A DNA stretch of 64,000 bases from Leisingera aquaemixtae (GTDB lineage: Bacteria; Pseudomonadota; Alphaproteobacteria; Rhodobacterales; Rhodobacteraceae), in NCBI RefSeq assembly GCF_001458395.1, contig NZ_CYSR01000027.1:62001-126000 (forward strand), in the 5' to 3' direction. Below, in pieces: positions 1 to 16,246 of the stretch. The translations under genes and the position numbers were made by a program. Under the pieces are notes generated by a model that saw only the letters and a program-made list of their open reading frames with translations, was not told the DNA's origin and ran no database searches. Within the stretch, counting starts at the first letter, position 1; each line of letters starts with the position of its first letter.

Positions 1-3000
1 ACACCCGCGCCGCCGATATACAACTCCCCCGGCGTTCCCGCGGGGACCGGCGCTTGATTTTCGTCCAGAACATAGACCTGCGTGTTGGCAACCGGCGTGC
101 CAATCCCGGCTGTCCCTGCGGGGACAGCGGAGATTTTCTCGACTGTGGACCAGATCGTGGTCTCGGTCGGGCCGTACATATTGCGGATCTCTGCCCGGGT
201 CGCGTCCTTCAATGCCTGCACCAGATCGCCGGGCAGCGCCTCGCCGCCGACCAGCAGATGCTGCAACTGGCCCAGGCAGGCGCTGGCGTCCGCGTCCGCG
301 GCTATCATCCGCGCCATCGACGGGGTGCATTGCATATGGCTGACCCCATGCCGCACGATCTGCGCCGCCAGCGAGAAGTCATCCGCCGCCAGTTCCTGCG
401 GCGCGTTCGACAGGCGCAGCACCTCGGCCAGCGGTTTCAGCCCCTCCAGCACCACGTCGGGCGCGATGCCATAGTCGATCAGGCAGGCAACCTCATCCAT
501 GCCGATGCGTTTCAGCTGCTCGACCCGCTGGCAGGCGTCCTGGATCGTGCCGAACAGGCCGGACTCTTCGAAATACCGCTCGAACGCGAAGTCGAGGATC
601 GCCTCCAGCTCTTCCTCGGACAGCATCCCCAGGTCCATCTCGAAGGGGTTGTTCACGCCCTCGGGTTTCTTGAAGGCGGGGAAGGCCCAGGCGTATTGCT
701 TGATCAGCCCGGCGGCGGAGCGCAGGTAGTCCTTCATCGGCTCGCGCGCTACCTTACGGGCCTCCTCGCGGGTTCCGGCCAGATAGCTGTGCAGCATCAG
801 CGTGACCCTGAAATCCGCGGGGTCATGGCCTGCGTCGCGCAGGGCGTCGTGGTAGATGCGGATCTTGCCTGCCACCTCCTCGATACTCTGCCCCAGGAGG
901 TGAGTCAGCACATTGGCCCCGATCGCACCGGCCACGCGCCAGGTCTCCGGGTTGCCCGCGGTGGTGACCCAGACCGGCAGCTCCTTGGAGACCGGGCGGG
1001 GCTGGGTGATGACGCTGTGCGCACCGCCGTCCTTGCGCGGGAAGGCCACTTCCTCGCCGCGCCACAGCTTGCGCACGGTTTCGATGGCGTCAAACATCGC
1101 GGCCTTATTGGCGGGCGGGGTGTTTTCGGGGCGCAGGATGAAATCATCCGGCTGCCAGCCGGAGGCAAAGCCGATGCCCGCACGCCCCGCGGTCAGGTTG
1201 TCGATTACCGCCCATTCCTCGGCAATCCGCGCCGGATGGTGCAAAGGCGCCACGCAAGAGCCGGAGCGCACGCCGATGTTCTGCGTCACCGCCGCAACCG
1301 CGGCGCCGGTGACCGACGGGTTCGGATAAGGCCCGCCAAAGGCGTGGAAGTGGCGCTCCGGCGTCCAGACCGCGTTGAAACCGTGCCGGTCAGCGAACTT
1401 GGCGCCTTCCAGCAGCAGATGGTATTTCTGCGGCCCCGGCCCGTCGTCATTGCCCCAGTAGAACAGGTTGAAATCCATCTTCCGGGTGCTGAGCGCCACG
1501 GGGCCCTTGGACAGCTCCAGCCGGCTTTCGTCGCTGGACAGAACCAGCTTTAAGCCGCGCGAGAGAGTCCAGAACAGCTCCAGCACTGAAATGTCGAAGC
1601 TGAGGCTGGTGACGGCCAGCCAGGCGTCGCCCTCCTGATGCGGGATGCGGGCGTCCATGCCGGTGAAGAAGTTCGACACATTGGCATGGGTGACCATCAC
1701 CCCCTTGGGCAGGCCGGTAGAGCCGGAGGTGTAGATGAGGTAGGCCAGATCGCTGCCGGTGGCGCCGCCGGAGGTGTTTTCCCCGGCTGTCCCCGCGGGG
1801 ACGGTTTCGATGTCCAGCACCTCAGCGTCCGAGGCCGGCAGGCTGCCCGCCAGCGCGCTTTGCGTCACGATGACCTGCGCCTGGCTGTCTGCGATGTAAT
1901 GCGCGACGCGGTCCGCGGGGTAGGCAGGATCCAGCGGCACATAGGCGCCGCCGGCCTTCATTACCCCAAGCGTGGCAAACACAAGGTCCGGCGCACGGCG
2001 GATGTAAATGCCGACATGGCTGCCCGGTTTCACGTTCATTTCACGCAGGCGGGCGGCCACCGCATTGGCGCGGGCGTTGACTTCGCCGTAGGTGAAGCTC
2101 TGGTCCTCGAACACCAGCGCGGTTACGTCGGGGGTCTTGGCGGCCTGCGCCTCAAACGCCGCGTGGATGGTCAGACCGGCGGGGTAGTCCGCGGCGGTCT
2201 GGTTCCAGTCCTCCAACAGCAGCTTGCGCTCGGCTTGCGGCAGGATGGGCAGCTCTGCAACCGGGCGGTTTGGGTCTTCCGCAATGGCAGCCAGCACCAG
2301 TTCCAGCCGGGCGGCGAGCAGTCCGGCGGATTTAGCGTCCAGCCGGGTGCTGTCGGTGTGCAGCCCCATTTTGCCGCCGCAGAAGGCGACGGTGGCGATG
2401 CAGCCGCCGACCGGCAGATCCTGGTCCAGAGACAGGCCGATTGCGGGCTGCGCCTGCGCCGGAATTGCCGGATCGCGGGCCACCAGGTCCTCAGGGAAAC
2501 CGCCGTATTTCCGGGCCTTTTCAATTTCTTCTGCCATGCGGCCGGTAAGATCCTGCAGCATCTGGCCGCGCCGGGCCTGTATCGGCACCCAAGGAGAGAT
2601 CAGGCCGGGCAGGGCCTCCGTGCTGCCAGCGGCGAGCGCCACATCGGCGGCGTTTTCCCCGCTGCTGAGCAGCGCCCAGGCCAGCACCCCAGCCGCCGCC
2701 TGGCTCTCACTGAGGGCGGCCGGCAAGGCGATCGCATAGCGGTCAAACCCGTCCCCCCCGGTATCCGAGGCCAGCGGCACCTGCACCGGCTGCATCACGG
2801 CAAGCCGCCGGCGCCAATGGCTTTCGCCGCCCTGGGCCGTCGCGAGGCGTGTGGTGAGCGTCTCTGCCTCAGCTGCAGTCAGGGAGGGCACCATGTCCCC
2901 CGCTTGGGCCAGTTTGGTGATGTCCAGCGGCTGGCCTGCGGGCGTGGTCAGGCGGGAAAGGGTCAGGGCGCCGTCGCCTGTGGCGATTGTTATGCTGGTT

Positions 3001-3761
3001 TTACGGGCTTCGAGCACCGTCCCCGGCGCGTCGCTGCCGTCCGCAACTTCGGCAGCGCCAGCCAGAACGACCGTGCCGCCGATGCGCAGCTTGGCGGCGC
3101 ACAGCGGGTTCCAGTAGCCGCCGGTATCCAGCGCGCGCACCAGCCGGGCCAGCTCCGCCGCGGGGCGGGTGAAATCGAGCATCCCGCCCGCTGCCGGGCG
3201 GTCGGATTTTTTGAACAGGCGGCGCTGGCTCAGATCCTGCTTCTGACGGGCCAGCTCACCGGTTTCCAGCTGCGTGACGACCTCGCCAAAACTGTCCATC
3301 GCCGCGGCGTAGCATTTGGAGTTGAGGCTGAAGGCGGATTCATCCGCCGCTACATCGAACAGGCGCTGGGCCAGGATATCGCCCTCGTCGACGCCGCCTT
3401 CGATCAGATGCCAGGTGATGCCATGCTGCGGCTCGCCGTTGATCAGCGCCCAGTTCGGGGTGTTGAGGCCCGCGTAATGGGGCAGGGGGCCGTCGTGGAA
3501 ATTGACCGCGCCCTTGGCGGCCAGGGCCAGCACCGCGTCCGGGATCACGGTCAGGTTGGCAACCGACAGCAGCCAGTCAAAACCGCCGGTCAGGTCGCCG
3601 GGTTTATCCAGCAGCGTCAGTCCCTTGTCCGCGGCCCAGGCACGGATGTCCGCGTCGTGGGAGACCACAGCCCGGATCTGGTGGCCGCGGGCCAGCAGCG
3701 CATCGGCGCAGCCGATCAGGAGGGATTCATTGCCGATCAGGGCACAGGTGAAAGCGGTCAT
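1..3761 (-). CDS. NRPS with N-terminal formyltransferase domain and a luciferase-like monooxygenase inserted in the adenylation domain (3' end outside window)
   Basis: Non-ribosomal peptide synthetase read from ATG at 3761 to the left edge (1253 codons, no stop). Residues 1-220 resemble a methionyl-tRNA-type formyltransferase: the Asn-His-Asp signature is visible as NFHDGPLP (about 82) and GVDEGDIL (about 124). Residues 230-500 resemble the C-terminal half of a condensation domain, without an HHxxxDG motif. An adenylation domain follows, with A3 YTSGSTGLPKG at about 675. A flavin-dependent luciferase-like monooxygenase of the MupA/Atu3671 type occupies about 750-1115 (MDFNLFYWGN onward). The adenylation domain then resumes with GGEAL and YGPTETT, ending at GELYIGG. 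N-terminal formyltransferase domains occur in initiation modules such as linear gramicidin LgrA. The start overlaps the upstream glycosyltransferase stop by 4 bp (ATGA), implying translational coupling. The amino-acid specificity and carrier domain are not visible. Confidence 0.93.
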   Translation of the reverse strand, partial: MTAFTCALIGNESLLIGCADALLARGHQIRAVVSHDADIRAWAADKGLTLLDKPGDLTGGFDWLLSVANLTVIPDAVLALAAKGAVNFHDGPLPHYAGLNTPNWALINGEPQHGITWHLIEGGVDEGDILAQRLFDVAADESAFSLNSKCYAAAMDSFGEVVTQLETGELARQKQDLSQRRLFKKSDRPAAGGMLDFTRPAAELARLVRALDTGGYWNPLCAAKLRIGGTVVLAGAAEVADGSDAPGTVLEARKTSITIATGDGALTLSRLTTPAGQPLDITKLAQAGDMVPSLTAAEAETLTTRLATAQGGESHWRRRLAVMQPVQVPLASDTGGDGFDRYAIALPAALSESQAAAGVLAWALLSSGENAADVALAAGSTEALPGLISPWVPIQARRGQMLQDLTGRMAEEIEKARKYGGFPEDLVARDPAIPAQAQPAIGLSLDQDLPVGGCIATVAFCGGKMGLHTDSTRLDAKSAGLLAARLELVLAAIAEDPNRPVAELPILPQAERKLLLEDWNQTAADYPAGLTIHAAFEAQAAKTPDVTALVFEDQSFTYGEVNARANAVAARLREMNVKPGSHVGIYIRRAPDLVFATLGVMKAGGAYVPLDPAYPADRVAHYIADSQAQVIVTQSALAGSLPASDAEVLDIETVPAGTAGENTSGGATGSDLAYLIYTSGSTGLPKGVMVTHANVSNFFTGMDARIPHQEGDAWLAVTSLSFDISVLELFWTLSRGLKLVLSSDESRLELSKGPVALSTRKMDFNLFYWGNDDGPGPQKYHLLLEGAKFADRHGFNAVWTPERHFHAFGGPYPNPSVTGAAVAAVTQNIGVRSGSCVAPLHHPARIAEEWAVIDNLTAGRAGIGFASGWQPDDFILRPENTPPANKAAMFDAIETVRKLWRGEEVAFPRKDGGAHSVITQPRPVSKELPVWVTTAGNPETWRVAGAIGANVLTHLLGQSIEEVAGKIRIYHDALRDAGHDPADFRVTLMLHSYLAGTREEARKVAREPMKDYLRSAAGLIKQYAWAFPAFKKPEGVNNPFEMDLGMLSEEELEAILDFAFERYFEESGLFGTIQDACQRVEQLKRIGMDEVACLIDYGIAPDVVLEGLKPLAEVLRLSNAPQELAADDFSLAAQIVRHGVSHMQCTPSMARMIAADADASACLGQLQHLLVGGEALPGDLVQALKDATRAEIRNMYGPTETTIWSTVEKISAVPAGTAGIGTPVANTQVYVLDENQAPVPAGTPGELYIGGAG

Positions 3762-4774
3762 TTCTGCTCCTTTGCAAGCGGAGAAGGGAGGCGCGTTTCC
3801 GAAGAGGGTGAGCGGCGCGGCGCTAGAAGCGCGCGCAGGCTGTGCAGGCACAGATCGCGCAGGAAATGCGGCGGATCCGCCTGCGGCTTGTTCTGGATCA
3901 GGCGGCGCAGGCCATAGATCAGGCTGCCGCTGATACGGGCCAGCGTGGCGGCGGCGGCATAGGCGCGGCCGTGGTTCTTGGTGAAGTAGTGCAGCCGCGA
4001 GTCGAACCAGTACTGCGGCGTGCGCTGCCAGCCCTTCATGCCGGTGGAGACAGAGCCGATGTGGGCCACCTCGCTGGCCGGCACATAGTGGGTGCGCCAA
4101 CCGGCGCGGGCGGCGCGGCGGCACAGGTCGGTTTCCTCGAAGTAGAGGAAAAAGGTCTCGTCAAAGCCGCCCGCGGCCTCAATCACCTCGCGGCGGATCA
4201 TCAGGCTGGCGCCGGCGGTCCAGTCCACCTGCACTTCGCCCTGCGGCATATCCATCGCCACCACCCAGGGCTTCAGGAGGCGGGTGAAGATGCCGGTGCG
4301 CACGCTGGCCTCGAACTCCCCCGCGATCGAGGGGAAGCGGAAGGCGGTGCGGTGCGGTTCGCCATCGGTGCCGCGCACGTAGGAGCCGGCCAGCCCGGCG
4401 CCGGGATGCTCCAGCAGGAAGTCGCGCAGGGTGCGGATGGTGCCGCCCTGCACAAAGGCGTCGGAATTCAGCAGGTAATAGAACTCCGGCGCGCTGCCGC
4501 CGGCCAGGCCCGCCTGGATGCCGATGTTCATGCCCGCGCCAAAGCCGCCGTTGACCGGCGAGGCCAGCAGCCTCAGCCGCCCGCTGTCCAGCCAGCCGCG
4601 GGCCTCTGCGCCGGCGCGGATCTGCTCAAAGGAGCCGTCGCCGGAGCCGTTGTCGATGATCAGCAGCTCGCCCGGCAGGTCCTCCATTTCGCGCAGCGCG
4701 GCCTCGGCCGCCTGCAGGGTCATCTCCGGCGTGCGGTAGTTGAGAAGGATGGTGAGGATACGCTGCTGGCTCAT
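3758..4774 (-). CDS. Family 2 glycosyltransferase (WbbL/rhamnosyltransferase-like)
   Basis: A 338-residue GT2 enzyme starting MSQQRILTILLNYRTPEM. The nucleotide-sugar-binding fold shows LLIIDNGSGDGS near residue 40 and a later DAF motif. The C-terminal half has ASLMIRREVIEAAGGFDE, then FLYFEETDLCRRA, typical of GT2 rhamnosyl- or related transferases. Such enzymes transfer a sugar from a nucleotide or dTDP donor in the cytoplasm. The ATG at 4774 lies 5 nt after the PKS stop, and its TGA overlaps the NRPS ATG, so it is almost certainly co-expressed with both megasynthases. That placement suggests glycosylation of the assembly-line product, or attachment of that product to a glycan. Donor and acceptor cannot be read from sequence. 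Confidence 0.9.
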   Translation of the reverse strand: MSQQRILTILLNYRTPEMTLQAAEAALREMEDLPGELLIIDNGSGDGSFEQIRAGAEARGWLDSGRLRLLASPVNGGFGAGMNIGIQAGLAGGSAPEFYYLLNSDAFVQGGTIRTLRDFLLEHPGAGLAGSYVRGTDGEPHRTAFRFPSIAGEFEASVRTGIFTRLLKPWVVAMDMPQGEVQVDWTAGASLMIRREVIEAAGGFDETFFLYFEETDLCRRAARAGWRTHYVPASEVAHIGSVSTGMKGWQRTPQYWFDSRLHYFTKNHGRAYAAAATLARISGSLIYGLRRLIQNKPQADPPHFLRDLCLHSLRALLAPRRSPSSETRLPSPLAKEQK

Positions 4775-4779
4775 CAGGG

Positions 4780-7700
4780 TCACTCCGCGGCCTGGTCGTA
4801 ACGGGGCCGCCCGGCGGCGGCGTCGGCGGCGTCCAGCCGCGCCTTCACGCCTGCCGCCAGCACGCTGACATTGGGCACCAGCACCATGCTGTCGTGATCG
4901 CCGGGCACCTCGGCCACCTCGGTGGCCGGGGCCCATTTGGTCCAGTCGTTGTCGTCAAAGACATATTCGCGCTCGCCACTGACCCAATGGCCGTTTGAGA
5001 CCTGCCATTTGCGGTCCAGCGGCGGCCTGAACAGGGTGAGCGGCCCGTCCCAAGGCCTGAGGCCATAGGTCCCGACCGCGGTGCGGAAGGCCAGTTCGAT
5101 CTTGCGGCTGTTGAATTCCGGCCGGGCGCCGGTCTCCGCCGGGCTGGCGCGGCGTTTCTCTAACTCCCACGCGATGCGGTTTCTGGCCCATTCGGCCAGG
5201 TAGCCCGGCCCCTTGCGGCGCAGTTCGGCGAGTTTAATCAGGGCCTTGTCGCGGCGGCTGAGAGGCGGGCGCACCGGCAGCGGCGTGTCCAGCAGGATCA
5301 GCGCGGCGGTGTCCTCGCCCTGGTCCTTCAGCTGCTGCGCCATCTCATAGGCGGTGATGCCGCCGCCGGAAAAACCGCCCAGCAGATAGGGGCCCTGGGG
5401 CTGGATCTGGCGGATTTCGGACAGGCAGCTGCGGGCGGCGTCCTCGATCCGGCTGTGCGGCGCGGCGTCGCCCACCAGCCCCTTGGCCTGCAGGCCGTAG
5501 ACCGGCCGGTCCTTGCCGACTTGCAGCGCCAGATGGCGCAGGTTCAGCACATTGCCGAACATGCCCGCCACCAGGAAGAAGGGCCGCCGCCCGGTGCCAT
5601 CACCCGGATGCAACTGAACCAGATGGGTGTATTGCGGCTGTTCCTCCGCAGTTTGGGGCGTGTCTCCCGGTTCCGCCACAACCCCGCCGCCGGTGCGGGC
5701 GATGATCCGCTCTGCCAGCGCGGCGACGCTGGGCGCCTCGAACAGCACCGACAGCGGGAACTCCACACCAAAGCTGCGTTTTACCTGTGCAAACAGCCGC
5801 ACCGCGATCAGCGAGTGGCCGCCAAGGTCAAAGAAACTGTCCTCGATCCCGACCTGGCTGACGCCCAAAAGCGCGGCAAAGAGCTTGGCCAGTTCCTCCT
5901 CCACCGGGTTGCGCGGGGCGATGTAATCGGTGTCGAGCTGCGGGCGGTCAAAGGTCTGCGCCTCTGCCGCGGCGGGCGCGGCGCTCTGCGACGCCTGTGT
6001 AATCAGCGCGGGCAGGTCGAGCGAGGAGACCACCACCTGCGGCAGCCCGGCTGCAAGCGCGCGGGCCAGCGCCTCGCCGCCGTCCTCGGCTTTGATACCG
6101 TTGGAAATGTTCAGCTGCAGACGGCGTTCCTCCGGTGACAGCGGCTGCGCGCTGCGGGCAGGCTCCAGACCCAGCTCTGCTGCGCTGGCGTCGGGCTCGG
6201 CCGTTGCGGCTGCCGCGTCAAAGCCGGAGGCGAGGCGCTGCATCCGGAAGCCTTCGATCTCGGCCAGAACGGTGCCCTCCGCATCCGTCAGGGTCACGTC
6301 GAACACGGCAGAGCCGCTGCCAGGCGCGCCGGCCAGCCGCACGTGGCTGAAGATGGTCGCGCTGAGCGGCGCGAAGACGCGGATGGTGCGGTAGGAGACC
6401 GGCACCCAAAGCGCATCTGCCCGATAACCGGGGATCAGCTTCATCGCCCAGCCGGTGGCAAGGTCCATCAGGCCGGGATGCAGCAGGGTGCCGTCCTGCG
6501 CCGCAGCCTCCGTCAGGGCCAGGCAGGCAACCCCTTCGCCATTCCCCAGGGCCGCACGCTCCAGCACATGCCAGCGCGGGCCAAAGCGCAGATGCGCCTC
6601 CTGCGGGGATTGCAGGCGCCCGCCGACAGGCGCCTGCTCCTCCGGGCATCGGGTGAAAATCTTCTGGAGGTTGAGTGCGGCGGGGCATTCTGCCACCGCC
6701 GCGGAGGCCAGCATTGCCTGACAGTTCAGAGAGTAACCATTTGTACATGCCGAGTAAACAAACAGTTCATAACCATTTTCTTTAGCTTCTAGCTTAACCA
6801 GAAGTTCTTTGGGGTCGCCGTCCTGCACAACCAGAGGGCGCAGGAAATAGAGGTCGCGGATTTCGAACGGCCCTTCGGCACCTGCTGCCGCCAGCGCCTC
6901 GGCGGCCATTTCGATGTAGCCGGTGCCCGGAACCAGAGCGGTGCCGTCTGCGGTGCGATGCTCATCCAGCAGCCAGTCTGCGGTGCTGAAGCGGGGCGTG
7001 AAGATGCGGTTGCCGGCGGCGTCGAACCGCTGCTGCTGCAGCAGCGGCTGCGGGCAGGGCTCTGGCGTGCTGGCGCCTGCGGCGCTGTTGCGGGCATTCA
7101 TGGCATCGGCGGCCATGCCGGTGTCCGCCCAGACACCCCAATCCACCGCCACGACACGGGTCTGCCCGCCGGCGCGGTGCTTGGCCCAGGCGTTCAGGTA
7201 TTCGTTGGCGGCGATGTAATCCACCTGGCCCGCGGGCCGGGTCACGGTGGAGGAGGAGGAAAACAGCACCATCAGCTCCAGGCTGCCGTCCGGAAACACC
7301 GTATCCAGCGCGCGCAGTCCGCTCACCTTGGGGGCCAGCACCTGGGCGATCCGGTCGTCGTCCTTGGCCAGCAGCGGGCCGTCGTTGATGACGCCGGCCG
7401 CGTGGATCACGCCGGTCAGCGGGCCGTTTGCGGCCTCGGCCTGCGCGCGCGCGGTGCGCAACTCGCCCGCGTGGCAGACGTCGGCGGCCAGCGGCAGCAC
7501 GGTGCCGTTGCAGGTCTCCTCCAGCGCCATCAGCGCGCGGATGCGCCGCGCGGTGCGGTTGGCCGGGCTGTGGCTGCTGAGATACCGGTCCCAGCTGTCG
7601 CGCGGCGGCAGGCCCTCGCGGGAGATCAGCGTGATCTTTGCACCGCGGTCCCGCATCAGATAACCCGCGATGGCCAGGCCGATGCCGCCATAGCCGCCGG

Positions 7701-10700
7701 TGATCAGGTAATGGCCGCCCTGCTTGAAGGGCGGTGTCTCCGGTTCGGGCAGCGGCTGCGGGCGCCAGGTGAGTTCGAACCGCTTTTCTCCGCGCCAGGC
7801 GGCGGAGGTGTTTGCGGGCTCCGCCATCAGCTCTTCCAGCAGCCGGGCGGTGATGTCCGTGTCCGCCGGGGTGCGGCGGGCAAACAGGCCCTGCGCCGCC
7901 GCTGGCAGCTCTATGTCCACGGTGGCGCAGGTCAGCCCCGGCAGCTCCCGCGGGATCACGCCGGCAGGGCCTGCGATCATCGCCTTTTCCGGATAGGGCA
8001 GGGCTTCGTCGCGGACCTGCGCGGCGCCGGTGGTAAAGACCGTGATGTGCAGCGGGCCGGGCAGATCGGCATTGCCCAGCTCCTGCGCCAGCGCGGTCAG
8101 GGAGTGGAAGCCCATCTCAAGGTTGCGGTCAAAGAAGGAGGAGCCGGGGCGGAAGGTTTCCCCCCCGGTCACCAGCCAGAAATGAGCGATCCGCTGCGGC
8201 AGAAGACCGGCCTCTGCCAGATCCGCCAGCAGCGCGCCATAGGCGGCGCGGCCCTGTTCGGGCGGCAGGATATATGCGTTCGGCGACAGCTGCGCATAGG
8301 TGTCGCCGGCGCGGACGCGCGCGACGGCATGGCCTGCGGCCTCCAGCCGGGCGGCGGCGCGGGCGGCATGGCCGGTTTCATCCTCGAAGATCAGCCAGGT
8401 TTGCGGATCCTGGCCCAGGTCCCGGTCCACGTCCCACGCGCAGTCTGCCAGCCGCGGACGCCAGGCCGGGCGGTAGCCCCAGTCGCTCAGATCCGCGTGG
8501 CGGGCCGGAGCCTCAGCGTCTTCCTCCACCACAGCTCTGCCGGGTTCGATAAAGTAGCGGCTGCGCTGGAAGGCGTATCCGGGCAGCGGCAGGCGGTTGC
8601 GCCGCGCCTCGCCCCAGATCTGCGGCCAGTCGGCCTCGACGCCGCAGGCCCACAGGCGGCCGATGACGCCGAAGAAATAGCTGTCGTCCATCACGTCCTG
8701 ATCCGGATGGCGCAGGGAGCTGAGCACCTGGCCCTGCTTTACCGCCGGCGACATCTGCGCCAGTGCGCTGAGGGCCTTGCCGGGGCCGACCTCCAGGAAC
8801 ACGCGGCTCGGGGTTTGGGCGAGGGTTTCGATGCAGCCGGCAAAAAGCACAGTGTTGCGCAGCTGACCCACCCAGTAGTCGGCGCTGGCGGCCTGTTCTG
8901 CGGTCAGGGCCGTGGCGGTGCGGTTGGAGATCACCGGCAGCTTCGGGGCGGACAGGGTCAGGGAGCGGATGAAGTCTCCGTACTCCTGCAGGATGCCGTC
9001 CAGCATCCGGGAATGGGCGGCAATGTCGATCTGGATGCGCTGGTGGTCCACCTCGCGGGCGCTCAGGTCTGCCGAAAGGCGGTCCAGCGCCTCCTGCGGG
9101 CCGGACACGGCGGTGAGCGATGGCGCGTTGACGCTGGCGATATCCAGGTCATCGCCGATGATGGCCTCGACTTCGGCCAGCGGCAGCGCAATCGACAGCA
9201 TCCCGCCTGCCGGCACGGTATCAAACAGCCGTCCGCGCAGCAGGACAAGGTCGATGCAGTCCTCAAAAGACAGCACACCGGCGAGGCAGGCGGCGGTATT
9301 TTCGCCCATGGAATGACCGACCAGCGCGGCGGGCTTCACGCCCCAGCTGATCCACAGCTGCGCCAGCGCGTATTCCACGATCATGATCAGCGGCAGCTGC
9401 ACCGAGGGCTGCTGCAGGCGCGCATTCGCCGCGTCCTCTTCGCCGTCTTCCGGCAGCCAGAGGGCGCGGATGTCGTAGTCCAGGCTCTTTTGCAGATGCT
9501 CCAGCCCGCGGTCCATCCACTCGGCGAAGACCGGTTCGGTCTCGTACAGGTCGCGCGCCACGCCCGCATATTGCGCGCCGCCGCCGGGGAACATGAATAC
9601 GACCTCCGGCGCGTCGCCCAGGCGGTCGTGGGTGAAGACCTTGCGCGGATCGTTTTCCTCAATCAGCCGGGCGGCTTCGGCAGCGGTCTCCGCCACCAGC
9701 ACCCGCCGTTTGGCAAAGCCGCGGCGGCCTTCCTTGAGGGTATAGGCCACGTCGGCAAGATCGGCCTCCGGGTTGGCCTTCAGATAGGCAGCCAGCGCCT
9801 GGGAGTTGGCCTCCAGCGCTGCCTTGGACTGTCCGGAAACGCAAAGGATCTGGAACGGGAAATCGCTTTCCTCCGAAGACGCGCGCTCCGGCGCTTCCTC
9901 CAGGATCACATGGGCATTGGTGCCGCCGACGCCCAGCGAGTTGATGCCCGCCCGCCGCGGACCCTTGTGCGGCACCCAGGGCGTCAGGGCGGCGTTCACC
10001 TTGAACGGCGAGGTGTCGAAATCTATCGCCGGGTTCGGTGCCTCATAGCCCAGCGAGGGCGGGATTTCCCGGTGGTGCAGCGCCAGCGCGGTCTTGGTCA
10101 GGCTGGCAACGCCCGCCGCGGTGTCCAGGTGGCCGATGTTGGTCTTGACCGAACCGATGCGGCAGTAACCGGTGTCCTGCGTGCTGGCGCGGTAAGCGTC
10201 GGTCAGCGCCGACACTTCGATCGGGTCGCCCAGATAGGTGCCGGTGCCGTGGCATTCGACATAGTCAATGGTCTCTGCCGGGGTGCCTGCCGCTGCCAGC
10301 GCCTTTTGCACCGCTGCTGACTGGCCGCCGACGGAAGGCGCCAGATAGCCCGCCTTGTCCGCGCCGTCGTTGTTGATGGCGGACCCCTTGATCACCGCCC
10401 AGATGTGGTCGCCGTCGGCAATCGCATCCTCAAGCCGCCGCAGCGCCACCGCACCGGCGCCGGAGCCGAAGACGGTGCCTTGCGCCCGGTGGTCGAAGGC
10501 GTGACAGTGGCCGTCCGGGCTGAGGATCTCGTTTTCCTTGTAAAGGTAGCCGCGGCCCTGCGGCATCTCGATGGTGACACCGCCCGCCAGCGCCATGCCG
10601 CACTCGCCCTCGCGCAGCGCTTTGCAGGCGTAATGCACCGCCACCAGCGAGGTGGAGCAGGCGGTCTGCACGTTGACCGACGGCCCCTTGAGGTCGAACA

Positions 10701-11229
10701 CATGGCTGACGCGGGTCGACAGGAAATCCTTGTCGTTGCCGGTATGGCGGAGCAGGAACATGCCCACGTCATCGACGAGGGCCGGGTTTGAGCAGATGTT
10801 GAAGTAGAAATAGCTGCCCATGCCGCAGCCCGCATAGACTCCAATTGGGCCGTTGATGCTTTCCGGCGGATGGCCCGCGTTTTCCATCGCGCCCCAGGCA
10901 ACTTCCAGAAACTTGCGGTGCTGCGGGTCGAGGATGGCGGCCTCTTTCGGGCTGAAGCCGAAGAATTCCGCATCAAACTCGTCAAACCCCTGCAGCCGGG
11001 CCGCGGCGGGCACATAGTTCGGGTTCGCCAAGGCTGAGGCGCGCTCGCCATGTGCCAGCAGCGTCTCGCGGTCCAGAACCTCAATCGATTCGATCCCTGC
11101 GCGCAGGTTTTGCCAGAACGCCTCGGCAGAGCCTGCGCCCGGCACCGTCACCGACAGCCCGACAATGGCAATATCACCGGGCGTATTCTGTTCAGCAGCG
11201 CCCGCCGCTGCGGAAATCCCATCTTGCAT
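4780..11229 (-). CDS. Type I polyketide synthase, single module KS-AT-KR-DH-ACP-TE
   Basis: A 2149-residue modular PKS starting MQDGISAAAG. Ketosynthase at about 18-450 has the active Cys in TACSTS (about 193), then HGTGT (about 328) and NIGH (about 365). Acyltransferase has GHSMG at about 639; its IAAHSRM segment matches neither the HAFH (malonyl) nor the YASH (methylmalonyl) signature cleanly. Ketoreductase has GGYGGIG at about 1178 and a SSSS...YIAANEY catalytic region near 1338. A dehydratase follows the KR, with HxxxGxxxxPG at about 1425 and HPGLMDL later. The carrier protein has DLGGHSL (Ser about 1805). A C-terminal thioesterase has GGFSGGG (about 1955) and a late GDHDSM His. DH after KR departs from the common DH-KR order. 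Upstream in-frame codons exist, but ATG 11229 precedes the conserved region sensibly. First gene of a PKS-GT-NRPS operon. Confidence 0.95.
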   Translation of the reverse strand: MQDGISAAAGAAEQNTPGDIAIVGLSVTVPGAGSAEAFWQNLRAGIESIEVLDRETLLAHGERASALANPNYVPAAARLQGFDEFDAEFFGFSPKEAAILDPQHRKFLEVAWGAMENAGHPPESINGPIGVYAGCGMGSYFYFNICSNPALVDDVGMFLLRHTGNDKDFLSTRVSHVFDLKGPSVNVQTACSTSLVAVHYACKALREGECGMALAGGVTIEMPQGRGYLYKENEILSPDGHCHAFDHRAQGTVFGSGAGAVALRRLEDAIADGDHIWAVIKGSAINNDGADKAGYLAPSVGGQSAAVQKALAAAGTPAETIDYVECHGTGTYLGDPIEVSALTDAYRASTQDTGYCRIGSVKTNIGHLDTAAGVASLTKTALALHHREIPPSLGYEAPNPAIDFDTSPFKVNAALTPWVPHKGPRRAGINSLGVGGTNAHVILEEAPERASSEESDFPFQILCVSGQSKAALEANSQALAAYLKANPEADLADVAYTLKEGRRGFAKRRVLVAETAAEAARLIEENDPRKVFTHDRLGDAPEVVFMFPGGGAQYAGVARDLYETEPVFAEWMDRGLEHLQKSLDYDIRALWLPEDGEEDAANARLQQPSVQLPLIMIVEYALAQLWISWGVKPAALVGHSMGENTAACLAGVLSFEDCIDLVLLRGRLFDTVPAGGMLSIALPLAEVEAIIGDDLDIASVNAPSLTAVSGPQEALDRLSADLSAREVDHQRIQIDIAAHSRMLDGILQEYGDFIRSLTLSAPKLPVISNRTATALTAEQAASADYWVGQLRNTVLFAGCIETLAQTPSRVFLEVGPGKALSALAQMSPAVKQGQVLSSLRHPDQDVMDDSYFFGVIGRLWACGVEADWPQIWGEARRNRLPLPGYAFQRSRYFIEPGRAVVEEDAEAPARHADLSDWGYRPAWRPRLADCAWDVDRDLGQDPQTWLIFEDETGHAARAAARLEAAGHAVARVRAGDTYAQLSPNAYILPPEQGRAAYGALLADLAEAGLLPQRIAHFWLVTGGETFRPGSSFFDRNLEMGFHSLTALAQELGNADLPGPLHITVFTTGAAQVRDEALPYPEKAMIAGPAGVIPRELPGLTCATVDIELPAAAQGLFARRTPADTDITARLLEELMAEPANTSAAWRGEKRFELTWRPQPLPEPETPPFKQGGHYLITGGYGGIGLAIAGYLMRDRGAKITLISREGLPPRDSWDRYLSSHSPANRTARRIRALMALEETCNGTVLPLAADVCHAGELRTARAQAEAANGPLTGVIHAAGVINDGPLLAKDDDRIAQVLAPKVSGLRALDTVFPDGSLELMVLFSSSSTVTRPAGQVDYIAANEYLNAWAKHRAGGQTRVVAVDWGVWADTGMAADAMNARNSAAGASTPEPCPQPLLQQQRFDAAGNRIFTPRFSTADWLLDEHRTADGTALVPGTGYIEMAAEALAAAGAEGPFEIRDLYFLRPLVVQDGDPKELLVKLEAKENGYELFVYSACTNGYSLNCQAMLASAAVAECPAALNLQKIFTRCPEEQAPVGGRLQSPQEAHLRFGPRWHVLERAALGNGEGVACLALTEAAAQDGTLLHPGLMDLATGWAMKLIPGYRADALWVPVSYRTIRVFAPLSATIFSHVRLAGAPGSGSAVFDVTLTDAEGTVLAEIEGFRMQRLASGFDAAAATAEPDASAAELGLEPARSAQPLSPEERRLQLNISNGIKAEDGGEALARALAAGLPQVVVSSLDLPALITQASQSAAPAAAEAQTFDRPQLDTDYIAPRNPVEEELAKLFAALLGVSQVGIEDSFFDLGGHSLIAVRLFAQVKRSFGVEFPLSVLFEAPSVAALAERIIARTGGGVVAEPGDTPQTAEEQPQYTHLVQLHPGDGTGRRPFFLVAGMFGNVLNLRHLALQVGKDRPVYGLQAKGLVGDAAPHSRIEDAARSCLSEIRQIQPQGPYLLGGFSGGGITAYEMAQQLKDQGEDTAALILLDTPLPVRPPLSRRDKALIKLAELRRKGPGYLAEWARNRIAWELEKRRASPAETGARPEFNSRKIELAFRTAVGTYGLRPWDGPLTLFRPPLDRKWQVSNGHWVSGEREYVFDDNDWTKWAPATEVAEVPGDHDSMVLVPNVSVLAAGVKARLDAADAAAGRPRYDQAAE

Positions 11230-11490: not shown

Positions 11491-12954
11491 TCACAGGACG
11501 CTGCGCCGCTCAGCGCTGGCGGTGTCAGGCAGCATTGCCTGCGCGCCGCCGAACAGCGCAGGGCGCGGGCGGAACACATCCGGGTACAGCAGCCGCTCGG
11601 CATAGCCCAGAACCGATCCCGCGCACATCCAGGTGATCGGGATCAGCGTCGCGTTCAGCAGCATGTCCACCATGGTGGCCGCCAGAATCAGCGCAATCGG
11701 CGCGGCATAGGGCGAGACGCTGCCGGCAGGCGCCCGCCGCGCGGCAAAGGCCAGCAGCATCAGCGGCGCCGCCAGCAATCCCATCTCGGCGATATAACCT
11801 AGCCAGCCGAAGGTGCCGAAGACGATGATCCAGCGCCCGTCCGGGACCGACAGGATCTGCCCGGTCTCCTCGTGCCGCACCAGGTTGCGGCCCCAGCCGC
11901 CCCAGCCGAACCAGGGTTTCTCCGCAGCCCTGGCAAGCAGCTGCGCTTCGTTCTCGAACCGGTAGTTCAGCGAATGCGCCCGCTCGGCACTGATCACCTC
12001 GGCCTGCGCCACCAGCGCTTCGGTCGGCACCAGCCCGGTGTTGCGCAGCATCGGGTAGACCACCGCGATCACCGCCAGCAGCAGAGCCGCCCGCAGCTGC
12101 CAGCGCAAGGGCGCCAGCGCCACGACGGGCACAAACGCCAGCGCATAGGCGAGCGAGGCCAGGCTCTTGCACAGCACCAGCACCGCAAACAGATAGGCAG
12201 CGGCCAGCGCCAGGCGCAGCCGCTGCCGGCCGGCGGCTGCACGGGCCAGGGCGGTTGCCGCCAGCAGCGCCGACAGCATGAAGAACGCCAGCCACAAGGC
12301 ATGCGGCAGGAACACGATGGGCCGGAACCCGCCCTGACGCATCATCTGGCTGAAATCGTGCTGGAAGAAGCCATAGACCCAGACATTGACCTGCGGGCTG
12401 AGCCGGATCTCAACCAGCGACGGGATGGTATAGGCCAGCGCGCCGATCATCAGCGCCAGCAGCAGCTCGCGCTGGGCCTCGGGCGTGGACAGGTAGCGGC
12501 GCGCCAGCAGGAACGGCATCAGCACGATGATCTGGTTGATGATGACAGAGCCCAGATCGCGCCAGCGCAGCCCGGGCAGCTGATCGGTCAGGAAAACGAT
12601 CGGGTCGGAATTGGCGATCTTGCGGAACAGGATCGGCTCGCCATTGGTCAGCACCGTGGGAATGACGCCGAATACGAACAGCAGCGCCAGCAGCCGCACT
12701 GCCGGATGCCGCGGCAAGAGCGGCACCGGCTTGCGCAACAGCCCGGCGCACAGCACAAAGGCCATCACCGAGGGGATGGCGAATTTGTCCATATCCGGCA
12801 CCAGCGGCAGGTCGAACTCGGCCAGCGGCGGCAGCAGCAGATAGCCCGCAATCAGGCACCACAGGATCGCCCGCTCCAGCGGCAGGCGCCGGAACAGCAC
12901 CAGGCTGACCAGCGGCCAGGCCAGCAGCATCAGATAGGCCAAGGCATTGGGCAC
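11491..12954 (-). CDS. Wzy-like / O-antigen ligase family membrane polymerase
   Basis: A 487-residue polytopic membrane protein with about 10-12 hydrophobic segments and a large loop around PWFGWGGWGRNLVRHEETG. That loop resembles the periplasmic region of the O-antigen ligase/polymerase family (WaaL/Wzy), where a Trp/Gly-rich W-G-W-G patch and nearby charged residues are typical. Such proteins polymerise or ligate lipid-linked glycan repeat units at the periplasmic face of the inner membrane. The start is GTG at 12954, with GAGGAG about 11 nt upstream. It lies upstream of the PKS operon on the same strand and divergent from a WecG/TagA glycosyltransferase, so an exopolysaccharide role is likely. 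Ligase versus polymerase cannot be decided. Confidence 0.82.
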   Translation of the reverse strand: MPNALAYLMLLAWPLVSLVLFRRLPLERAILWCLIAGYLLLPPLAEFDLPLVPDMDKFAIPSVMAFVLCAGLLRKPVPLLPRHPAVRLLALLFVFGVIPTVLTNGEPILFRKIANSDPIVFLTDQLPGLRWRDLGSVIINQIIVLMPFLLARRYLSTPEAQRELLLALMIGALAYTIPSLVEIRLSPQVNVWVYGFFQHDFSQMMRQGGFRPIVFLPHALWLAFFMLSALLAATALARAAAGRQRLRLALAAAYLFAVLVLCKSLASLAYALAFVPVVALAPLRWQLRAALLLAVIAVVYPMLRNTGLVPTEALVAQAEVISAERAHSLNYRFENEAQLLARAAEKPWFGWGGWGRNLVRHEETGQILSVPDGRWIIVFGTFGWLGYIAEMGLLAAPLMLLAFAARRAPAGSVSPYAAPIALILAATMVDMLLNATLIPITWMCAGSVLGYAERLLYPDVFRPRPALFGGAQAMLPDTASAERRSVL

Positions 12955-12991: not shown

Positions 12992-13043
12992 GTTTAACGG
13001 TTGCCGCGGGCGCTGTCGCGCGGATTTGCAAGAACCGGTAAAC
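12992..13043. promoter_or_regulatory. Imperfect inverted repeat in the divergent glycan-gene promoter
   Basis: GTTTAACGGTT (12992-13002) and AACCGGTAAAC (13033-13043) are inverted repeats with one mismatch in 11 positions. They sit between the divergent polymerase and WecG-like genes. Candidate operator; binding protein unknown. Confidence 0.35.
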
Positions 13044-13144
13044 GGTGTGCAGCGAAGCCACGCTGGCGGCAGGGGCCGGCGGGCTGCGCTGGCCTGACGC
13101 GGATGCCGGATGTATCAGGGAATTGTCTAAGACCTGGGGATGCA

Positions 13145-13897
13145 GTGTATTTCGATTTCAACGGCCGCCGGGTGGCGGTGAACATGCCCCGCCGGGCGCT
13201 ACTGGAGGCGGAGATCCGGGCGCGGTTCAAGGCGCGTCAGGGCTTTGCCCTGGCTACGGTCAACTTGGACCACTTGGTCAAACTGGCGCAGTCGCCGGAG
13301 TTCCTGGCTGCCTATCAGGCGCAGGATCTGGTGGTGGCGGACGGGCGCCCGATTGTCTGGCTGTCGCGGCTTGCGGGCCGCCCGGTGGAGCTGATGCCGG
13401 GCTCGGATCTGGTGCTGCCGCTGTGCCGCCTGGCGGCCGGGGCCGGGGTGCCGGTGGCGCTGGCCGGCAGCACCGAAGAGGCGCTGGCAGACGCCGCGGA
13501 GGCGCTGGCCGCCGAAGTGCCGGGGCTGGATATCGCCTGGTGCCACGCCCCCTCAGGCCGGTTCGACCCGGAGGGCGAGGAGGCCGACCGGATCCTGCAC
13601 CGGCTGGATGAGACAGGCGTGGGCCTGTGTTTCCTGGCGCTGGGTGCCCCCAAGCAGGAGCGCCTGGCGCAGCGCGGCCGCCGGCTGGCGCCGCGCACCG
13701 GCTTTGCCAGCATCGGCGCCGGGCTGGATTTCCTCGGCGGCCATCAGAAGCGCGCCCCTGCCTGGGTGCGGGCGATCGCGATGGAGTGGCTGTGGCGGGC
13801 GCTGTCCAGCCCGACCCGGCTGCTGCCGCGCTATGCCAGATGCCTGGCCATCCTGCCTGCCCAGATGCTCAAAGCCTGGCGGATCCGGACCCGTTGA
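13145..13897 (+). CDS. WecG/TagA/CpsF family glycosyltransferase
   Basis: GT26-family enzyme of about 250 residues that transfers an N-acetylhexosamine or similar sugar to an undecaprenyl-linked acceptor in EPS, teichoic-acid or ECA-type pathways. Family features: TVNLDHLVKLAQSPEF near residue 40, the VVADGRPIVWLSRL segment with the conserved Asp, PGSDLVLPL, LGAPKQERL and the late SIGAGLDFLGG motif. The start is uncertain. GTG 13145, with GGGGA just upstream, gives a family-like N terminus (VYFDFNGRRV); an in-frame ATG at 13103 and one at 13001 would add 14 or 48 residues. It is divergent from the Wzy-like gene and convergent with the next glycosyltransferase, consistent with surface-polysaccharide synthesis. 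Confidence 0.87.
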   Translation: MYFDFNGRRVAVNMPRRALLEAEIRARFKARQGFALATVNLDHLVKLAQSPEFLAAYQAQDLVVADGRPIVWLSRLAGRPVELMPGSDLVLPLCRLAAGAGVPVALAGSTEEALADAAEALAAEVPGLDIAWCHAPSGRFDPEGEEADRILHRLDETGVGLCFLALGAPKQERLAQRGRRLAPRTGFASIGAGLDFLGGHQKRAPAWVRAIAMEWLWRALSSPTRLLPRYARCLAILPAQMLKAWRIRTR

Positions 13898-14034: not shown

Positions 14035-14985
14035 CTACTTGTACTCCAGAATGCCGCGCGCCGTGCCGCGCCGCCGCCGCCAGTGGTATTCCAGCGCGCC
14101 GGAGGCTTCGGCAAATTTGCCCAGTACCGAAAACAGCGCCCGTTCATAGCCCATGCGGCGGGACAGGCGCAGGACCTGGACCGGGTAGATCAGCGCCGCC
14201 AGCAGCAGGGGCGGGGAGACCAGCCCGGCGGCCGCGATGGCGGCGGGCAGCGCCGCGCCCCAGGTGAGCGCGCGGCGGGTCTCGGTGCGCCAATGGCGCT
14301 CCGGTCCCGCGCCATGCAGCGCAGCCCCCTCGGCAAAGGCGTGGCCTGCGCGGCGGCTGCGGTTCCACCACTGGCCAAAGCGCAGCATCTGCGCGTCATG
14401 CAGCGTCATCTCAGCGTCCAGCCGCCAGATCTGCCAGCCCGCCCGCCGCAGCCGCAGGCACAGTTCCGGCTCCTCGCCGGCAATCAGGCTCTCGCGGTAG
14501 CCGCCCGCGGTATAGACCGCCGCCACCCGCATCAGCGCATCGCCGCCGCAGGCCGCGGCCTCGCCAACGGGGGTGTCCCATTCGGCGTCGCACAGCCGGT
14601 TATAGACCGACGCCTGCGGAAACCGCTCCCGCCGCCGCCCGCAGGCCGCCGCGGCCCGGGGGCGGGTTTGCAGGAACGCCGCCGCGGCTGGGATCCAGCC
14701 CGGGTCCACCTCGCAGTCGCCGTCCACGAATTGCACCAGCTCGATCCCGCTCCTCAGGGCGGCCAGACCGGCATTGCGGGCGCGGGCGGCGGTGAAGGGG
14801 CGGCTGAGGTCCAGATCCACGACCTCAGCGCCCAGGCCCCGCGCCGCTTCCGCCGAGCCATCACTTGAGCCGCTGTCCACGTAGATCAGCTGCTGCACCT
14901 GCCCTTGCAGGGAGCGCAGGCAGCGGATCAGCCGCGCGCCTTCGTTGCGGCCGATCACCACCGCGCCGATGGACGCCGCACTCAT
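14035..14985 (-). CDS. Family 2 glycosyltransferase
   Basis: A 316-residue GT2 enzyme starting MSAASIGAVVIGRNEGARL. The GT-A fold motifs are visible: VDSGSSDGS near residue 38, FVDGDCEVDPGW near 92, and CGGDALMRV then GEEPELCLRLRRAGW around 160-190. The C terminus has hydrophobic segments (LPAAIAAAGLVSPPLLLAALIYP), suggesting membrane association. Its ATG overlaps the stop of the upstream glycosyltransferase (ATGA), so the two are translationally coupled. Likely builds the same surface glycan as the neighbouring polymer genes; donor sugar unknown. Confidence 0.88.
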   Translation of the reverse strand: MSAASIGAVVIGRNEGARLIRCLRSLQGQVQQLIYVDSGSSDGSAEAARGLGAEVVDLDLSRPFTAARARNAGLAALRSGIELVQFVDGDCEVDPGWIPAAAAFLQTRPRAAAACGRRRERFPQASVYNRLCDAEWDTPVGEAAACGGDALMRVAAVYTAGGYRESLIAGEEPELCLRLRRAGWQIWRLDAEMTLHDAQMLRFGQWWNRSRRAGHAFAEGAALHGAGPERHWRTETRRALTWGAALPAAIAAAGLVSPPLLLAALIYPVQVLRLSRRMGYERALFSVLGKFAEASGALEYHWRRRRGTARGILEYK

Positions 14986-16031
14986 GCGCCGTCTCCGGCA
15001 AGGTGGGCGCTGTACTCCGGCGCGCGGCGCAGGAAGCCCAGGCGCTGCAGACCGGCGATGCTTGCGTCTTCCAAGGCCGCATCGGACCACAGGCTCAGCT
15101 CCGGCTGCGCCTGCATTGCGTCGCTGCGCAGCCTGTCCTCGCCATGTTCGGAGACCGCCTCGGCCCGGGTCTGCAGATCGCGTGCCAGGCTGTCGCCGGC
15201 GAACTTGTAGTGGCGGATCAGCCCCTCGACGTCCGCCACCGCCACCCCGGCAGAGACATGCGGATGCACAGCCGCCTGCACGCCGGGGCCGTTGAACACC
15301 AGCGGGTGCTTGCTGAGGCAGCAGCGCTCGCCGAAGACCTTGCCGCGGACCCCGCCGAACAGTATCCGTGCCCCGCCCGGCGGCAGGCTGTTCTGGCGCA
15401 GGTAATAGGCCAGCCCGGTCTCCGCGGCGGCGTAATCCAGCGCCTGCACCGTGCTGATGTCGCAATAGCGGAAGGCCTTTACCGCGCCGGCATAGGACAG
15501 CCCGCGGGCCGCCGCCAGCGGGCCCTTGGGGAACATCTCCAGCATCTGCGCGTGCATGGCGGTGTAACCCTGCTCTGTCAGATAGGCGGTCAGCCCGGGC
15601 AGCCCGGCGGTGCCGCTGCCCTCGAATTCGAGCAGTTCGTCCATGTCGGCAAACAGACACCAGCGGTCCTGGCCATACCGGCTGGCGGCATAGGCGCGGA
15701 AAGTGTTCTCAAACTCCAGCCAGGGCAGGGCAGAGCGCAGCACCGCGGTGCCCGGCTCCTGCCGGATGCGCTCTACCGTGCCATCCGTCGAGCCATTGTC
15801 GATGAAGACAAAGCAGGAGACGCCAAGCCGCCGGTAATGCTCAAAAAACATGTCGAGGTAATAGGCCCCGTCCCGCACCAGCGCGATCAGCACCGCCTCC
15901 TGCGGGGCGGCAAACCGGCGGGCGGGGCCGTGCAGATGCTGCAGCGACCTGTGCAGGCTTGCGCGGTGCAGGGCGTCTTGCGCCATCCTCCCAGCGCGGG
16001 CCGCCAGCCTGTGGCCGAATGATTTGTGCAC
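14982..16031 (-). CDS. Glycosyltransferase family 2 / DUF23-like protein
   Basis: A roughly 349-residue protein with FVFIDNGSTDGTVERI near residue 70, FADMDELLEFEG near 125, and conserved late segments (KVFGERCCLSKHPLVF and LIRHYKF) typical of the Glyco_tranf_2_4/GT92-like bacterial glycosyltransferases. The most upstream in-frame ATG (16250) would add 73 residues of low-complexity sequence overlapping tamB. GTG at 16031 is preferred because ACGGAG lies 8 nt upstream and the protein then begins close to the homologous region. It overlaps the downstream GT2 gene by 4 bp. Probably part of the exopolysaccharide set. Confidence 0.8.
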   Translation of the reverse strand: MHKSFGHRLAARAGRMAQDALHRASLHRSLQHLHGPARRFAAPQEAVLIALVRDGAYYLDMFFEHYRRLGVSCFVFIDNGSTDGTVERIRQEPGTAVLRSALPWLEFENTFRAYAASRYGQDRWCLFADMDELLEFEGSGTAGLPGLTAYLTEQGYTAMHAQMLEMFPKGPLAAARGLSYAGAVKAFRYCDISTVQALDYAAAETGLAYYLRQNSLPPGGARILFGGVRGKVFGERCCLSKHPLVFNGPGVQAAVHPHVSAGVAVADVEGLIRHYKFAGDSLARDLQTRAEAVSEHGEDRLRSDAMQAQPELSLWSDAALEDASIAGLQRLGFLRRAPEYSAHLAGDGA

Positions 16032-16246
16032 GCGGGGCTCCGTTTTGCGCCTGCCGGGACTGTCGCTGTCAACCTGCAAGGTTCCGCCGGCGGCTGCAAG
16101 CGCTGCCTGCCGGCTCAACTGCAATTGCGGCGGGATTGCTGCAGTCCCAGGGGCGGCAGATGGCCGCAAACAGGCCCTCGGCGGATGGCGGCCCGGCGGC
16201 GCGGACCGGACGGCGGTGCGCCCTGTCCGCGGCCAGGCCGCCGCCG

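Follow-up and report, generated by a model that had tools for sequence, protein, structure and literature searches.

A putative formyltransferase-led starter module with an interrupted adenylation domain beside polysaccharide genes in Leisingera aquaemixtae

Introduction

The modules of nonribosomal peptide synthetases (NRPSs) described for myxothiazol and melithiazol consist of a condensation domain, a glycine adenylation (A) domain with a monooxygenase (MOx) between motifs a4 and a5, and a peptidyl carrier protein (PCP), an order written C-A(MOx)-PCP (PMC11342130, PMC10204066). A second described type, F-A(Gly)-PCP, is that of the starters CongA (conglobatin) and OzmO (oxazolomycin), which join a formyltransferase to a glycine A domain and a carrier feeding a polyketide synthase (PKS) (PMC4504003). 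Among roseobacters, a four-gene cluster was found in 28 of 57 previously sequenced genomes, its product being given as uncharacterised (PMC4337385), and a further account, which cites Martens et al. 2007 for the roseobacter PKS/NRPS cluster, gives the product as not identified (PMC5014874). Here we describe an NRPS gene at the left edge of a window of Leisingera aquaemixtae DNA, the window being the whole stretch of 64,000 nucleotides analysed (positions 62001-126000 of contig NZ_CYSR01000027.1, hereafter C27, forward strand). The locus has the same four genes as the conserved roseobacter cluster: PKS, glycosyltransferase, NRPS and phosphopantetheinyl transferase (PPTase). The NRPS shares its monooxygenase insertion site with the myxothiazol-type modules, and its formyltransferase, glycine-type A domain, carrier and PKS partner with the conglobatin-type starters. 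Numbers prefixed L and G denote loci and genomes of our comparison set.

We propose, with moderate confidence, that the NRPS serves as starter module to an assembly line made up of itself and the PKS, in which a retained N-formyl-alpha-hydroxyglycyl starter would be extended once with malonyl to give a C4 acyl unit for an exopolysaccharide. The chemistry is what we infer from domains and gene neighbourhood.

Domain architecture

Searches with Pfam and NCBIfam profiles placed Formyl_trans_N (E 2.9e-15) at residues 67-153, Formyl_trans_C (E 3.3e-10) at residues 193-285, AMP-binding (E 4.5e-87) in two stretches, and TIGR04020 (E 1.5e-140; 468.1 bits against a cut-off of 244.45) at residues 764-1114. 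TIGR04020 gave weak matches in 10 of 14 control genomes and rose above the cut-off in none; by profile statistics the Formyl_trans, AMP-binding and TIGR04020 matches are not due to chance. Both formyltransferase profiles confirm the N-terminal formyltransferase of the preliminary description, which had been made from the letters of the window, and its luciferase-like insert of about 360 residues and MupA/Atu3671 type (luciferase-like monooxygenase, LLM) stands as a 351-residue match to TIGR04020. That the A domain is interrupted also holds; the placing of the insert between A3 and A4 does not. With the A-domain motifs named a3 to a5, a4 is SFDISVLEL (residues 721-729) and a5 is NMYGPTET (residues 1194-1201), the LLM lies after the former and before the latter, and GGEAL is not a4.

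What occupies the space between the formyltransferase and the A domain? Residues 296-529 gave no Pfam match at E 1 or better, while a profile of 34 orthologues aligns (hhalign probability 97.0, E 9.2e-11) to columns 194-462 of the 488 that make up full condensation domains. This bears out the earlier suggestion that only the C-terminal half of a condensation domain is present, and the N-terminal part with HHxxxDG is absent from the module. A complete condensation domain was rejected on the missing Pfam match and the alignment of C-terminal columns alone; the missing motif by itself proves little, for L163, with a full Pfam condensation match, likewise lacks the exact HHxxxDG. The AlphaFold2 model of residues 1-530 has a mean predicted local distance difference test (pLDDT) score of 95.3, and its best 50 Foldseek hits are all of the formyltransferase fold (ArnA, Fmt and the hydrolase domain of 10-formyltetrahydrofolate dehydrogenase), so that it is the profile alignment, not a fold match, that carries the case for the condensation lobe.

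The model of residues 521-1487 (pLDDT 88.5) finds NRPS structures as its best hits. The closest solved monooxygenase to the LLM is the Ox domain of PuwE (PDB 6KET; 45% identity, 358 alignment columns, template modelling score 0.91 by 6KET chain length), which is flanked by an aminotransferase region on one side and an NRPS module on the other and is proposed to make a 3-amino-2-hydroxy acyl chain rather than to act on glycine (PMC4219810). Downstream of the A domain there is one carrier protein with Ser1443, and the protein ends about 80 residues past this serine, leaving no room for a thioesterase (TE). The gene stops 804 bases left of the window, at C27:61196, and a large NRPS extending leftwards was rejected on that account; the further NRPS expected there at first comes down to the end of the A domain, a single carrier protein and a tail.

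How does this order compare with the described ones? The myxothiazol and melithiazol modules (MtaG in the case of myxothiazol) end their lines through amide release and a TE, whereas the module here starts the line, with a formyltransferase before a bare condensation lobe, as judged against the published descriptions. Of the complete condensation domain of myxothiazol-type modules only the C-terminal lobe is found, and a TE on the same module, as in myxothiazol-type release, has no room after the carrier. From the F-A(Gly)-PCP starters the module has the N-terminal formyltransferase with Asn-His-Asp, the predicted glycine A domain and the carrier Ser; the accessible text on CongA and OzmO, compared by description, mentions no monooxygenase, and their products carry an oxazole (PMC4504003).

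LgrA of linear gramicidin likewise bears an N-terminal formyltransferase on an A-PCP module, whose starter is valine, and among PDB sequences its chain 9be3 matches best. In LgrA, however, the A-domain match begins at about residue 198, leaving no room for a condensation lobe, and there is no insert. An LgrA-type starter was rejected, given the Formyl_trans_C match and the condensation lobe of the module here.

Substrate code and conservation

Code positions were found by alignment to the GrsA A domain, the numbering resting on a GrsA stretch that was checked by GrsA's own code. The ten positions of the query read DILQLGMIWK. All 94 rows, comprising the query and 93 relatives (four near-duplicates included), have DILQ; variation is seen at site 299 (L in 58, M in 30, F in 4, Y in 2), at 330 (V in 2) and at 322 (L in 1), and site 517 is missing in the one truncated row. 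Eighteen further A(LLM) domains from Rhodobacterales, Hyphomicrobiales, Streptomyces, Nostoc, Deinococcus, Burkholderia and other genomes all have Q at 278, and 17 of them start with DILQ, the Streptomyces domain reading DMVQ. Four glycine-activating domains with MOX are reported with the identical code DILQLGMIWK (PMC12283262). Glycine is therefore the predicted substrate, which supplies the A-domain specificity that the preliminary description had left to later prediction.

We observe strong conservation of the parts that the proposed starter would need. The formyltransferase Asn-His-Asp, the LLM and the carrier serine are each present in 88 of 90 rows (4 near-duplicates removed; L119, L115, L122, L123 and L084, which have no full-length orthologue or are cut by contig ends, were dropped beforehand). 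The residues N87, H89 and D125 are presumably catalytic, as in Fmt; the preliminary description had named a lack of catalytic residues as a possible refutation, and they are present. Exceptions are few: L121 (G097) has lost the LLM, the carrier serine and all three formyltransferase residues; L120 (G085) has lost the LLM and nothing else; L130 (G126) has lost the formyltransferase His and Asp, the second copy in that genome, L131, being intact; and L132 is cut before the carrier. In a second set of 12 formyltransferase-bearing proteins Asn-His-Asp is kept in 11, the outside relative L158 having Phe in place of His. The PKS of L121 is split in two open reading frames (ORFs), and L121 may be a decaying or repurposed copy. 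Judged by their residues, both L121 and L130 look like decayed copies, because L121 also lacks the LLM and the carrier Ser, and G126 keeps the intact L131.

The altered residues of L121, L130 and L158 would suit a formyltransferase domain that adds no formyl group and persists as a relic or for its structure, as may hold for the condensation lobe too. With the triad intact in 88 of 90 rows, the full Fmt/ArnA-like fold of the model and its Foldseek hits, and the decayed look of L121 and L130, such a relic seems highly improbable.

Polyketide synthase partner and proposed chemistry

The partner PKS has the order ketosynthase (KS), acyltransferase (AT), ketoreductase (KR), dehydratase (DH), acyl carrier protein (ACP) and TE, found equally in the three relatives scanned (L158, L160, L163); a DH after the KR is an unusual order. 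Among the query and the 94 neighbours whose PKS ORF reaches 1,900 aa or more (95 rows), no change is seen in the Cys-His-His of the KS, the Ser of the AT, the Tyr-Asn of the KR, the His and Asp of the DH or the Ser of the ACP, and the TE keeps its Ser in 93, its His in 93 and its Asp in 94. From 107 loci of 14 kb or more, 103 distinct neighbourhoods remained once 4 near-identical ones had been removed; they include L163, which lacks the formyltransferase, and the LLM-less L120 and L121. A PKS lies near the NRPS in 102 of them; the exception, L075, is cut by its contig. A further large protein with an A domain is encoded near the module in two divergent relatives, at L124:3-6200 (G144) and L182:16441-25725 (Aliiroseovarius M344), where the same starter could lead to longer products.

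What could the two proteins make together? The first step has good sequence support: glycine would be activated by the split A domain and loaded on the module's own carrier protein, presumably primed by the adjoining PPTase. The formyltransferase, standing at the position of the condensation N-lobe, would then formylate the glycyl amine in place of the amide bond of C-A(MOx) modules; formylation of carrier-bound glycine before the PKS is the proposed start of conglobatin (PMC4504003). The inserted flavin monooxygenase would hydroxylate the alpha carbon of the N-formylglycyl-S-carrier, as the MOx of glycine A domains does with N-acylated glycine (PMC11342130, PMC10204066). The KS of the PKS would take over this C2 unit, one malonyl would be added, and KR and DH would act, giving a C4 acyl group, for example 4-formamido-4-hydroxybut-2-enoyl, which the TE would release or transfer. 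Finally, as the gene neighbourhood suggests, the acyl group would decorate a Wzx/Wzy-type exopolysaccharide or its lipid-linked repeat unit.

A point against a retained formyl group is that in myxothiazol and melithiazol hydroxylation is followed by collapse (PMC11342130, PMC10204066), and the same collapse of the alpha-hydroxyglycyl unit would here discard it. Formylation might then serve only to supply an N-acylglycine, which would be hydroxylated and then shed formamide, as happens in myxothiazol release; the PKS would extend the resulting glyoxylyl thioester to a 4-oxobut-2-enoyl unit. The match of code and insertion site with myxothiazol-type modules would fit such a route. The carbinolamide of solanimycin, on the other hand, is said to survive, the insert there lying at a8/a9 (PMC11342130, PMC10204066), and a conserved formyltransferase adding a group that is thrown away would be costly. 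We regard a glyoxylyl starter as possible, if somewhat unlikely. The N-formylated, oxidised starter that the preliminary description predicted came out of testing as the best-supported reading, carried by the kept residues, the partial condensation domain and the adjoining PKS.

Polysaccharide context

Where would such an acyl group go? The neighbourhood encodes a flippase (Polysacc_synt_3, 139.6 bits) and an initiating sugar-phosphate transferase (Bac_transf, 193.8 bits), both above cut-off, besides a weak Wzz match below it (20.2 bits against 25.5). When six polysaccharide hallmarks were sought by BLAST to the proteins of the window's genome, at least one was found in 92 of the 103 neighbourhoods and at least two in 77. 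As a control, Bac_transf genes (PF02397) were mapped in 37 genomes. In 26 of these, at least one lies no more than 30 kb from the NRPS or its relative; given the number of such genes in each genome and the genome size, 1.75 would be expected, an expectation that ignores shared descent. These genomes were hand-picked from the matching ones, 31 of 73 in the family and 6 outside it (including G878, which has no formyltransferase), and the counts are 23 of 31 and 3 of 6, respectively. Among eight plasmid loci with formyltransferase and A(LLM), five are polysaccharide loci, two carry no annotation and one (Aliiroseovarius M344) is not a polysaccharide locus. The gene order differs in Shinella and Aminobacter, where the PKS is divergent.

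On a plasmid of Deinococcus actinosclerus, the formyltransferase (304 aa; Formyl_trans_N 2.1e-24; NLHPGPLP and GIDTGD motifs) has a gene of its own, which is followed by those for A(LLM)-PCP and a PKS, and the annotation of both flanks names polysaccharide biosynthesis, CapK, UDP-glucose 6-dehydrogenase and sugar transferases. The formyltransferase is part of the same protein in one phylum and an adjoining gene in the other, and it is therefore likely, as far as gene arrangement tells, that its activity and that of A(LLM) work together. We propose that the product is destined for exopolysaccharide.

Several observations weigh against the overall reading of the line. The LLM is absent from L120 and L121 and formyltransferase residues are altered in L121, L130 and L158, so neither modification is universal; no condensation lobe was recognised in the N-terminal 360 residues of the Deinococcus A(LLM) protein (best 2.4 bits). 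A same-contig Bac_transf gene within the 30-kb limit is missing from 11 of the 37 genomes and any hallmark from 11 of the 103 neighbourhoods, and common descent inflates neighbourhood links in general. Aliiroseovarius M344, G537 and G853 showed no polysaccharide gene next to the pair, and in the last two neither a hallmark nor a near Bac_transf was found. No acyltransferase for moving the product to a sugar was identified.

The isolated pairs of M344, G537 and G853 would rather suggest an ordinary small secreted metabolite (a signal, an antibiotic or a metal binder) that merely shares its locus with polysaccharide genes, and the roseobacter papers class the cluster as secondary metabolism (PMC5014874, PMC4337385). 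A free metabolite is nevertheless unlikely in our view, given the excess of nearby Bac_transf, the persistence of the polysaccharide link under the other gene orders of Shinella and Aminobacter and in another phylum with Deinococcus, and the absence of any exporter or regulator gene from the seven-gene operon.

Origin of the module

In an A-domain tree of 65 rows, which carries a long-branch warning, a single group (98/96) unites all 33 A domains of formyltransferase-A(LLM) modules, five of the six remaining A(LLM) domains and the two family members that lack the LLM, with no plain A domain inside; a Burkholderia A(LLM) row, L181, falls outside it. L121 is nested within the A(LLM) group (100/99), L120 sits at an unresolved fork, and the main forks within the group are open. 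From these placements a second loss there is likely.

Related modules have the parts in other combinations. A full condensation domain precedes A(LLM) in L163 (G878), where the gene adjoins a PKS of the same domain order, in L164 (G841), in Streptomyces L178 and in Nostoc L180. Formyltransferase and condensation lobe without an LLM occur in L165, L166 (G753), L159 (G503) and L176 (Sinorhizobium); in the tree L165, L166 and L176 group with plain A domains of their own genomes and L159 with a plain A domain of G841. As these four stand outside the A(LLM) group, a single origin for the A domains of formyltransferase modules with and without LLM was rejected. The simplest story would be a chimera, in which a myxothiazol-type A(MOx) module was joined to a formyltransferase replacing the condensation N-lobe.

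In the Sinorhizobium meliloti pSymA record (CP140947.1), an upstream formyltransferase domain at L176:18004-18861 lies in the same open frame (from 17881 on) and is left out by the annotation, which starts at locus position 19075; the annotated start of this NRPS/PKS is probably too far downstream.

Distribution and previous accounts

Seventy-three of 198 genomes of the family (one per genus, the own genome counted) match the NRPS at E 1e-100 or better, some as pieces at contig ends, and the architecture is therefore no rarity. At 1e-90, matches were found in 8 of 385 genomes of a class sample and 18 of 398 of a phylum sample, both of which overlap the family sample in their genomes; the matches include incomplete ones and ones without the formyltransferase. 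Named relatives cover 58 loci, including Leisingera, Phaeobacter, Tritonibacter, Roseovarius and Sulfitobacter, with L119 (Brevibacillus) matching in the A domain only. The closest named records are from Leisingera, at 84-87% identity, own-genome records having possibly been left out of the search. Plasmids with at least 80% query cover make up 14 of 136 matching records, their hosts including Parasedimentitalea, Ruegeria, Shinella, Aminobacter, Rhizobium grahamii, Neorhizobium, Paracoccus and Aliiroseovarius. By tblastn, PKS, glycosyltransferase and NRPS occur together in all of the first 20 neighbourhoods and the PPTase in 19 of them; ORF calling undercounts PPTases, finding them in 71 of 103 neighbourhoods.

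The Leisingera strains ANG-Vp, ANG-M1, ANG-M7, ANG1 and JC1 of the published accounts have orthologues at 85-87% identity, and the accessible text of these accounts names no NRPS domains, substrate or polysaccharide surroundings (PMC5014874, PMC4337385). The cluster is thus already known. The preliminary description had recognised no characterised product, and none, nor a link to exopolysaccharide, turned up in the open-access literature, a search that did not cover Martens et al. 2007 or the fabrubactin paper; within the same literature we found no account of the module architecture with its chimera of condensation lobe and formyltransferase, of the glycine assignment, of the module's origin or of the Deinococcus version with its separate formyltransferase gene. 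A Leisingera-like cluster at 77% identity also occurs in JAHVJD010000005.1 (L070), a record titled Nocardioides marinus, an actinobacterium, which is probably mislabelled or a mixed assembly.

Gene row and other features of the window

The features of the window are listed in Table 1. The NRPS starts with an ATG at window position 3761, preceded by AGGAG, and the overlap with the preceding gene is ATGA. Seven genes form a row on the same strand: PKS, glycosyltransferase and NRPS, and, beyond the window edge, the PPTase, two further proteins and a glycosyltransferase. With the chosen starts, their junctions are five 4-base overlaps and one 5-base gap, and we describe the row as an operon.

Table 1. 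Coordinates of the starter module, its domains and neighbouring genes in the window (aa, amino acids; FMN, flavin mononucleotide)
Feature	Position	Strand	Remarks
NRPS starter module gene	1..3761	minus	5' 3,761 of 4,566 bases; continues to C27:61196; protein 1,521 aa
Formyltransferase domain	2907..3761	minus	residues 1-285; N87, H89, D125 present
Condensation domain, C-terminal lobe	2175..2876	minus	residues 296-529; without HHxxxDG
Adenylation domain, N-terminal part up to motif a4	1518..2156	minus	residues 536-748
Inserted MupA/Atu3671-family FMN monooxygenase (LLM), TIGR04020	420..1472	minus	residues 764-1114
Adenylation domain, resumed part	1..398	minus	remainder of A domain and carrier protein (Ser1443) left of window
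Family-2 glycosyltransferase between PKS and NRPS	3758..4774	minus	3' end overlaps NRPS start by 4 bases
Type I PKS, KS-AT-KR-DH-ACP-TE	4780..11229	minus	2,149 aa from likely start; catalytic residues intact
Wzy/O-antigen-ligase-like membrane protein	11491..12954	minus	weak match: Wzy_C 24 bits, below cut-off 31.7
WecG/TagA/CpsF glycosyltransferase	13001..13897	plus	PF03808, 153 bits
Family-2 glycosyltransferase	14982..16250	minus	–

The two further proteins, of 312 and 834 aa, are encoded left of the window at C27:57074-60513 (L009:15074-18513). We take them to be SGNH-like from the motifs GHSL...DxIHxN, a pattern common to both that resembles SGNH esterases. The 312-aa protein matches no Pfam family and the 834-aa protein only a domain of unknown function (0.04), the latter having no PDB match up to E 1; by BLAST, relatives of the two occur in 54 and 66 of the 103 neighbourhoods, respectively. 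They are candidates for acyl transfer to, or removal from, the polymer.

Beyond the polysaccharide genes, window positions 16247-21675 hold TamB and TamA-like genes (TamB and Omp85 families). A TamB-domain gene also lies about 10 kb from the NRPS-PKS pair in Aliiroseovarius M344.

Implications

Roseobacters are known to colonise algae and marine surfaces. The cluster is widespread among them, yet in the accessible text of papers from 2015 and 2016 its product is still called unknown. The proposed reading makes the question testable by naming one substrate (glycine), two modifications, a single extension and exopolysaccharide as the destination. The module also provides an evolutionary case of a formyltransferase in place of half a condensation domain.

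We hypothesize further, and only tentatively, that this is a dedicated NRPS-PKS line that would exist solely to supply exopolysaccharide with a C4 acyl group derived from N-formyl-alpha-hydroxyglycine, a widespread class decorating a surface polymer rather than making a free product, with members in the roseobacter family, Shinella, Aminobacter and, with a split formyltransferase, Deinococcus. If true, this would add an assembly-line route to the ways in which bacteria modify their surface polymers.

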